From NCBI GenBank assembly GCA_016788825.1, contig JAEUSD010000006.1:1-55188 (forward strand): a stretch of DNA of 55,188 bases, written 5' to 3'. This stretch comes from Candidatus Doudnabacteria bacterium. Lineage in GTDB: Bacteria > Patescibacteriota > Dojkabacteria > J137 > JAEUSD01. The position numbers and the translations under genes were made by a program. Below the pieces are notes generated by a model. It saw nothing but the letters and a program-made list of their open reading frames with translations, did no database searches and was not told where the DNA came from. Shown piece by piece: positions 48,511-50,046 of the stretch. How positions within the stretch are numbered: the stretch's first letter is position 1; every line of letters begins with the position of its first letter.

Positions 48511-49842
48511 ATGAGTGAACTAATAAACACAAATAATGCTGTCTGGCCACTGGGGGAGCAAGTTGACCCAGATTTTTTCTCCAAAGTACAAGATATAGAA
48601 GTGTTTGTTCTACCAAACGGTATAACTGTGGTACTTTTGCGGGATATTAATGATAGAAGTACGTATTTGGATATGAGGGTGAATGCTGGAAGCATTCACC
48701 AGCCTACGGATCTGCGGGGAATCGCTCACTTTACAGAGCACATGCTGTTTCAGGGGACCAAGCGATTCCCCGACCAGGCAGCATTCCTGCAACACGCGGA
48801 GGAGTTCAATCTCAGCTGGAACGGTTACACCTCCGAGGGGCTACAGTCATTTTGGGTAGAGTCTGATAATGATCTTGAGTCAATTGAGGAGGCCTTTATT
48901 CACCTTTCCCAGTTGATCTGGGAGCCTTTATTGCCTGAATCGAAGGTGGATAAGGAGCGTGAAGTTGTCTTTAGTGAACGTCAGGCGGCTATGAGCGATC
49001 CTGAGCAGTTTACAATGGAAGCTTTCAACAATCACTTTTATGATGCGAATACGCCCTACGCTGGTGGCGGGGTTCTCGGTGGAGACGAAGAGATTCGCCG
49101 TTTTACACATCAAGATGTGCGTGATTTTCACTCTCGCTATTTTACACCTTCAAACATGCACTTGTTGGTGGTCGGTGGTGCTGAGCTTTCTGTGTACAGG
49201 GGCATGATTGAGAGGTATTTCGGCAACAACGAGCGGACTTCTACCTCTTGGGAGAAGAATCCTGTTTTACGCGCTGTTCGGAAAGGGGCGCCTAAGGAAT
49301 CTTCGATTAGCAAGGAGTTCAACCACGCGAACTTGTATATGGGATATTACCTGCACAATGAGGCCGAGCTGATCTACCCTTCGCCAGAGTTGTTTGCGCT
49401 CAAGTTCGCGGCATATGCCCTTTCCACGCGGATCTTTCTAGATCTGCGTGACCGTCAGGGTTTGGCTTATGCTGTGGGGTGTAGTTTGCTAGATTTGGAC
49501 ACAGGTTTCTTGTTCAACTTCTCGGGTGAATTCCCGGCTGACAAATACAACCAGGCCTTCGATGAGGTTAGAAAGTATGCAGATGACAAGTTGTATGAAC
49601 CAATCACTGAGCAGGAGTTTAAACGTGCGTTGCGTTATTTTAGATCAACTCGTTGGGCACGTAGTGGACGTAAAGTCGCAAACTTTGTGGCAGATAACTT
49701 GTTTAAGTACGGTCAATTAATCGCTCCTGAAAGTATGCACAAGTATCTGGCCGACTTGGATGTAGCCTTTGTGAACAAAACCTTGCATAAAAAACTCTCT
49801 GGTCACAAGCTAGATATTCTGGCAGTCGGAGCTGTTAAATAA
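48511..49842 (+). CDS. M16 family zinc peptidase
   Basis: 443 residues. The inverted zinc motif H73-FTE-H77 (HxxEH) is intact, and the EREVVFSERQ helix about 75 residues later provides the third ligand. The C-terminal half has the substrate-binding RDRQGLAYAVG region. I chose the ATG at 48511, five bases after the pbp stop, rather than the in-frame GTG at 48496 that overlaps pbp. There is no signal peptide, so it is likely cytoplasmic, unless exported by another route. It ends just before the tRNA promoter. Confidence 0.93.
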   Translation: MSELINTNNAVWPLGEQVDPDFFSKVQDIEVFVLPNGITVVLLRDINDRSTYLDMRVNAGSIHQPTDLRGIAHFTEHMLFQGTKRFPDQAAFLQHAEEFNLSWNGYTSEGLQSFWVESDNDLESIEEAFIHLSQLIWEPLLPESKVDKEREVVFSERQAAMSDPEQFTMEAFNNHFYDANTPYAGGGVLGGDEEIRRFTHQDVRDFHSRYFTPSNMHLLVVGGAELSVYRGMIERYFGNNERTSTSWEKNPVLRAVRKGAPKESSISKEFNHANLYMGYYLHNEAELIYPSPELFALKFAAYALSTRIFLDLRDRQGLAYAVGCSLLDLDTGFLFNFSGEFPADKYNQAFDEVRKYADDKLYEPITEQEFKRALRYFRSTRWARSGRKVANFVADNLFKYGQLIAPESMHKYLADLDVAFVNKTLHKKLSGHKLDILAVGAVK

Positions 49843-49857
49843 CAGGAGAATATATAG

Positions 49858-49863
49858 TATAAT
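49858..49863 (+). promoter_or_regulatory. -10 element of the tRNA-Gly locus
   Basis: TATAAT places the start near 49870, one or two bases before the truncated tRNA copy at 49871. The -35 (TTAAAT, 49835-49840) is weak. Confidence 0.55.
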
Positions 49864-49870
49864 TGACGGG

Positions 49871-49894
49871 TGCGGGTATAGTATATCGGTTATT
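49871..49894 (+). repeat. Exact copy of the tRNA-Gly 5' third
   Basis: This 24-base stretch (ending CGGTTATT) is identical to 49974-49997, i.e. the base before plus the acceptor and D-arm 5' part of tRNA-Gly. The match ends before the anticodon arm, and no acceptor 3' strand follows, so it cannot fold as a complete tRNA. The copies are 103 bases apart. Confidence 0.9.
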
Positions 49895-49954
49895 TAGACA
49901 ATCTCCGCAAGGAGAACTTAAAAGGAACCAGGTTCCGATGTCGCAATAACCGAT
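49885..49954 (+). ncRNA. Predicted three-way-junction RNA before tRNA-Gly
   Basis: ATCGGTTATT (49885-49894) pairs perfectly with AATAACCGAT (49945-49954). Inside are two hairpins: TCTCC-GCAA-GGAGA (49902-49915, GNRA loop) and GGAAC-CAG-GTTCC (49924-49936). The 3' strand could instead pair with the same D-arm sequence of the real tRNA at 49988-49997. Function unknown. Confidence 0.5.
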
Positions 49955-49974
49955 CAGGAATCTAAAAACTTAAT

Positions 49975-50046
49975 GCGGGTATAGTATATCGGTTATTATG
50001 TCAGTTTTCCAAACTGAAGAGGCGAGTTCGATTCTCGCTACCCGCT
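49975..50046 (+). tRNA. tRNA-Gly(UCC)
   Basis: A full cloverleaf: acceptor GCGGGTA with TACCCGC, anticodon stem TCAGT/ACTGA around loop TTTCCAA (anticodon TCC), variable AGAG, T arm GCGAG-TTCGATT-CTCGC and discriminator T. CCA is not encoded. The convergent PPOX gene stop overlaps its last two bases. It reads GGA and GGG codons. Confidence 0.95.

Follow-up and report, generated by a model that had tools for sequence, protein, structure and literature searches.

Why does a tRNA gene stand behind a second copy of its own 5′ part? The sole tRNA gene of the window (the whole 55,188-nucleotide stretch of DNA analyzed here) is an intact tRNA-Gly(UCC) at 49975–50046 on the plus strand (ARAGORN; Rfam RF00005, 62.8 bits). 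As the original prediction had it, an exact 24-nt direct repeat, TGCGGGTATAGTATATCGGTTATT, was found at 49871–49894 and at 49974–49997, with a start-to-start distance of 103 nt. The repeat spans tRNA-Gly positions −1 to 23, namely one upstream base and residues 1–23. The displaced copy of the tRNA 5′ third (49871–49894, plus strand) thus includes the acceptor strand but falls short of the entire D-arm that had been proposed: it has most of this arm, and the last D-stem bases (24 and 25) lie outside. The whole 103-nt unit occupies 49871–49973 on the plus strand, delimited by the repeat and by tandem copies in other genomes (see below), and no second copy was found elsewhere in its own genome (G000).

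From the sequence, a probable promoter can be read at 49835–49863 on the plus strand. It consists of a weak −35 box (TTAAAT, 49835–49840), a 17-nt spacer, and a −10 box (TATAAT, 49858–49863) that ends about 7 nt ahead of the displaced copy, in agreement with the predicted position of the repeat just after a −10 box. A consensus promoter scan did not list this promoter because its −35 box is weak. Judging from the promoter position, transcription is expected to start near 49870. By the same kind of reading, no clear promoter is present in the spacer directly before the intact tRNA-Gly (49952–49973), which may form a weak 3-bp hairpin (GAT-CAGGA-ATC, 49952–49962). A convergent gene ends at 50045, facing the tRNA-Gly locus.

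What lies between the two copies? The 70 nt at 49885–49954 were predicted to fold as a three-way junction closed by D-arm sequence and its antisense, and they do fold so. The closing stem P1 pairs ATCGGTTATT, which is the displaced D-loop (tRNA residues 14–23, at 49885–49894), with AATAACCGAT (49945–49954), which is antisense to the D-loop of both the displaced and the intact copies. The inner junction (49897–49942) comprises P2 (GACA/TGTC, 49897–49900/49939–49942), the P3 hairpin (TCTCC-GCAA-GGAGA, 49902–49915), an A-rich linker (49916–49923), and the P4 hairpin (GGAAC-CAG-GTTCC, 49924–49936), all on the plus strand and assigned by folding. The minimum free energy of the 103-nt leader is −26.4, with a z-score of −3.0. 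On the minus strand (49936–49924), P4 and the A-rich linker can be read as a terminator-like site, which may stop antisense transcription.

Is this unit found in other genomes? A DNA search of 58 relatives revealed plain tRNA genes, save for a partial leader match at a contig end of G002. When the G002 contigs were joined over an exact 67-nt overlap, a unit of 102 nt with a 25-nt repeat was found to precede a tRNA-Gly(UCC). The G002 unit copies the differing tRNA 5′ end of its own host, AGGCGCGTATAGTATAGCGGTTATT; the tRNA 5′ sequence in the unit is GCGCGTATAGTATAGCGGTTATT and the antisense is AATAACCGC. The G002 junction equals that of the window in length and is followed by a CAGGA loop, which belongs to a hairpin (CAC-CAGGA-GTG) at the same place as the 49952–49962 hairpin. 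Counted inward from the outer ends of the repeat, C3 and C2 of G002 both break off after exactly 97 nt of the unit, and these contig ends apparently fit a tandem array that was collapsed in k-mer assembly. From the window and G002 units, a covariance model was then made and run on 86 genomes of the class. It detected a third case, G027, so that two further genomes of the class have the unit, with unit lengths of 102–105 nt.

In G027, two adjoining and nearly identical units of 104 and 105 nt are followed by the start of a third copy. A TATAAT box is also present ahead of the first unit. The contig ends inside this next repeat, before any tRNA is reached, so that the attachment of the array to tRNA-Gly is presumed. 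An account of this contig end by assembly k yields no standard k and was dropped. Drift in the outer unit affects the acceptor and D-stem sequence and spares the P1-forming D-loop. The inner sequence is unrelated to that of the window, and P1, the two-hairpin junction, and the length are retained. This insert has the same length and fold as the window insert, with which it may or may not be homologous. The inserts of the window and G002 match at about half of their positions and share ancestry; the three genomes therefore represent about two independent observations, not three. T-rich stretches after P4 on the minus strand are also seen in G002 and G027.

Is the fold stronger than expected by chance? 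The longest complement to the 5′ third in the insert is 10 nt in the window, 9 nt in G002, and 8 nt in G027, and such complements were reached by 7, 6, and 33 of 2000 shuffles, respectively. When P1 was held fixed, the junction was 2.8–3.5 standard deviations more stable than inner shuffles in all three genomes (z of −2.8 to −3.5). The two-hairpin topology matches among the three genomes and is by itself common among shuffles (30–38%). The covariation across relatives that had been suggested as a check is thin: the fold recurs in two relatives, but the covariation in P1 amounts to one compensatory pair (U15-A to G15-C), which 111 of 500 shuffles also reach. Within the element, no Rfam family other than tRNA gave a meaningful score. 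No riboswitch or known structured RNA was found at the gathering score, nor any match to the group I intron core, in the element of the window, G002, or G027. A known RNA family was rejected for the leader, as Rfam gave no match. Sites of the attC type were also considered, and their core boxes misfit by eye.

The unit is present in three of the 86 class genomes, which belong to three genera, and is absent from the other 83 according to both the model and a pattern search. The 400 nt upstream of 14 other tRNA-Gly(UCC) genes contain no 5′ copy of at least 10 nt. A scan of 380 genomes across the phylum recovered the window and G027 alone, with a pattern that is overly strict and would not have detected G002. 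On viral contigs, a strict pattern gave 0 matches. A loose pattern there gave 120 matches, every one without a downstream 5′ repeat, and carriage by viruses was rejected. The sole match of a pattern scan of genome contigs lies in an apparently coding, unrelated region. A tRNA-Glu gene of G006 has a 12-nt copy at −125 with a different fold and is a doubtful case.

Do other tRNA genes have displaced 5′ parts? When the tRNA loci of the same genome were screened, one other case was found, tRNA-Arg(UCU) at G000:C4 774–849 on the minus strand (L052/L199, L241). Its 5′ end recurs as a 15-nt copy at −185, behind a TATAAT box, and a truncated ORF in the insert codes for the C-terminal half of a GIY-YIG domain (PF01541). 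By its sequence, this GIY-YIG layout is taken to be a remnant. A second TATAAT is located just ahead of the intact tRNA-Arg gene.

In the 58 genomes, the relatives of this ORF are mostly flanked by a 19–36-nt copy of a tRNA 5′ part on one side and by the intact tRNA on the other. A profile made from six tRNA-linked GIY-YIG ORFs was run over the class and yielded about 90 ORFs, 25 of which have an intact same-strand tRNA directly downstream. For 20 of these 25 tRNAs, an exact copy of 12–36 nt of the tRNA's own 5′ part was found 185–437 nt upstream, a proportion that is not a census, since tRNA-linked ORFs had served as seeds of the profile. Reversed upstream sequences, used as a control, gave copies of at most 10 nt. 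The 20 cases cover 11 isotypes: Asp (four), Pro and Ser (three each), Asn and Met (two each), and Lys, Gln, Arg, Cys, Leu, and Gly(GCC) (one each). GIY-YIG loci with a displaced 5′ part are L218–L224, L226, L228, L251, L252, L257, L267, L273, L279, L281, L292, L297, and L299. The insertions reach varied tRNA positions, from 12 to 36. Palindromic hairpins, often TCCCG-N-CGGGA, come after the displaced copies or break into them, and in many cases TATAAT boxes tend to precede the displaced copy, not the intact tRNA. Tandem GIY-YIG units were found at the tRNA-Asn of G024 (L299, G024:C85) and the tRNA-Asp of G004 (L205, G004:C40). These tandem units carry decayed ORFs. The 3′ end of the small GIY-YIG ORF often overlaps the tRNA start.

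Is the Gly(UCC) unit one of these insertions? Both sets have the same plan, consisting of a promoter, a displaced 5′ part, hairpins, an insert, and an intact tRNA, and both have a tandem habit. At tRNA-Gly(UCC), the displaced exact copy is 24 nt and is followed by hairpins (P3 and P4); tandem units occur in G027 and, by assembly signature, in G002, while the window has a single unit. In contrast, there is no GIY-YIG match between the tRNA-Gly copies, where such an ORF would not fit into the 79-nt insert, and the tRNA-Gly(UCC) loci of G000, G002, and G027 yielded no GIY-YIG ORF. Furthermore, a D-loop antisense of more than 6 nt was found in none of the GIY-YIG cases tested. The absent ORF and the D-loop antisense set the Gly(UCC) unit apart. 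As the antisense junction is peculiar to Gly(UCC) units, a common origin with the GIY-YIG elements is unproven, and with both differences the unit is to be regarded as a noncoding insertion of the same mechanism rather than a proven member. The unit is probably related to the GIY-YIG insertions by mechanism.

With modest confidence, I lean toward reading the feature as a 103-nt noncoding unit that inserted into the D-arm, restored the tRNA 5′ part, and likely derives from a GIY-YIG-like invasion of tRNA genes. This source is the most likely one because the same layout recurs around GIY-YIG ORFs elsewhere. The mobility and function of the Gly(UCC) unit are inferred, as follows. A break in the tRNA gene would be repaired with a copied unit, the end of which is a tRNA 5′ part. 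The promoter and the old 5′ third (to position 23) would be left upstream, and the insert would end in a fresh, identical 5′ third, by which an intact tRNA-Gly would be rebuilt downstream. Since an intact tRNA would be regenerated each time, the insertion would be repeatable and would give arrays. The spread would have been driven by a nuclease, and the origin may be shared with the GIY-YIG elements. Transcription would probably begin at the displaced copy and read through the tRNA, and RNase P would free the tRNA-Gly, the leader being discarded. The displaced copy, if free, could compete for the tRNA 3′ half; by taking up the displaced D-loop, P1 would probably keep this copy from acting as a second 5′ half.

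Could the leader instead be a cis-acting RNA switch, whose antisense and second acceptor strand control the folding or 5′ processing of tRNA-Gly(UCC)? The antisense is able to pair with either D-loop copy, the fold is retained in three genomes, and the unit copies the tRNA 5′ end of each host. RNAfold also pairs the tRNA 3′ acceptor strand with the leader copy with a probability of about 0.99. However, shuffled inserts give 0.96–0.99, and thus this preference is not evidence for a switch; as modeled, it stems from the presence of two 5′ copies in the multiloop energy model. The original suggestion that the leader may switch or delay tRNA folding or processing finds no support here. Moreover, a conserved ligand-like core is absent, the unit is missing from most relatives, and tandem arrays would be odd for a switch. 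A switch is thus unlikely. An ordinary partial tandem duplication, by slippage or unequal exchange, of a tRNA with a hairpin-rich leader, involving no mobile agent, is about as improbable. Direct repeats with hairpins favor slippage, arrays can arise from one unit by recombination, and the G027 units are nearly identical, but such a duplication leaves unexplained the source of the 79-nt insert, the agreement of three genera in insertion point, length, and fold, and the parallel GIY-YIG cases. A decayed tandem tRNA, another earlier suggestion, became less likely because the insert has no recognizable tRNA-Gly 3′ part and the unit length is constant.

It is known that integrases use tRNA genes as att sites and that the element's own copy restores the tRNA, usually its 3′ end. 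The 24–25-nt identity block at the tRNA and the tandem copies would be compatible with a remnant att site of an integrase-type element (a prophage or an ICE) integrating at the tRNA 5′ part. Here, in contrast, it is the 5′ end that is restored, the loci read showed no integrase, and the tRNA-tied insertions bear GIY-YIG nucleases. In addition, deletion scars would not be expected to share length and fold in three genomes, which makes this reading quite improbable. The more general idea of an insertion scar at the tRNA was favored by the comparison, although it is a recurrent structured unit with tandem copies rather than a one-off scar. It was also considered whether the tRNA start was falsely duplicated by the assembler, since the window comes from a fragmented assembly of 56 contigs. 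Such an artefact is hardly credible, as the insert is unique sequence and two other assemblies show the same architecture.

Are similar arrangements known? At the tyrT gene of E. coli, the noncoding rtT tandem repeats beside the tRNA gene each contain a fragment of that tRNA. Those repeats have the 3′ end of tRNA-Tyr and lie downstream, whereas the Gly(UCC) unit has the 5′ third upstream and an antisense-closed junction. The SegB-type free-standing GIY-YIG homing endonucleases of T-even phages are also encoded by genes adjoining tRNA genes (PMC13096335; PMC2988022). In the present case, the hosts are chromosomal tRNAs of small-genome bacteria, the unit brings the tRNA 5′ part only, and the Gly(UCC) unit has a conserved RNA fold and no nuclease ORF. 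The rRNA genes of CPR bacteria carry insertion sequences (introns), some of which encode homing endonucleases (PMC11270868). Both are insertions into structural RNA genes of CPR bacteria, but those introns interrupt the rRNA genes, while splicing is unneeded at tRNA-Gly because the intact tRNA is rebuilt downstream. Open-access papers on tRNA genes, introns, homing endonucleases, and GIY-YIG proteins in CPR describe no displaced tRNA 5′ parts, which is not proof of novelty, as open-access papers only were covered.

A broader reading, which I offer tentatively as possible rather than probable, is that of an undescribed family of tRNA invaders that insert into the 5′ half and bring a replacement 5′ part. 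Members encoding a GIY-YIG nuclease of about 90 amino acids would be autonomous, and the 103-nt three-way-junction unit would be a nonautonomous, noncoding form that multiplies in tandem and hides the displaced D-loop by its antisense. If this is true, small-genome bacteria (probably Patescibacteria/CPR) host such a family, and, in very small genomes, invasion of essential tRNA genes can recur with their function kept, the new 5′ part replacing splicing. From its genome size and gene content, the organism of the window probably belongs to the Patescibacteria/CPR. The structured leader would then be tied to the wider pattern of GIY-YIG ORFs between a displaced 5′ part and an intact tRNA in 11 isotypes. 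With this locus, it can be tested directly whether displaced tRNA pieces are neutralized by short RNA folds.

A few other loci may be mentioned. The tRNA-Thr(UGU) at L287 has a 26-nt partial copy of positions 8–33 at −92, with no GIY-YIG ORF. Displaced 5′ copies followed by noncoding inserts were found at the tRNA-Phe of G011 (L256, −142) and the tRNA-Lys of G004 (L264, −128). These two inserts have no GIY-YIG ORF and resemble one another (CTCAA..GAGAT...TTAGTCC, plus hairpins); group I intron remnants were suspected there by eye, and Rfam gave no match. G002 has a second, odd tRNA-Gly(UCC) on contig G002:C33 (L022 1600–1775), with a palindrome-like insert in the variable region, and the sequence CTCGCAATAGCCGC 13 nt upstream of this gene is perhaps a remnant.
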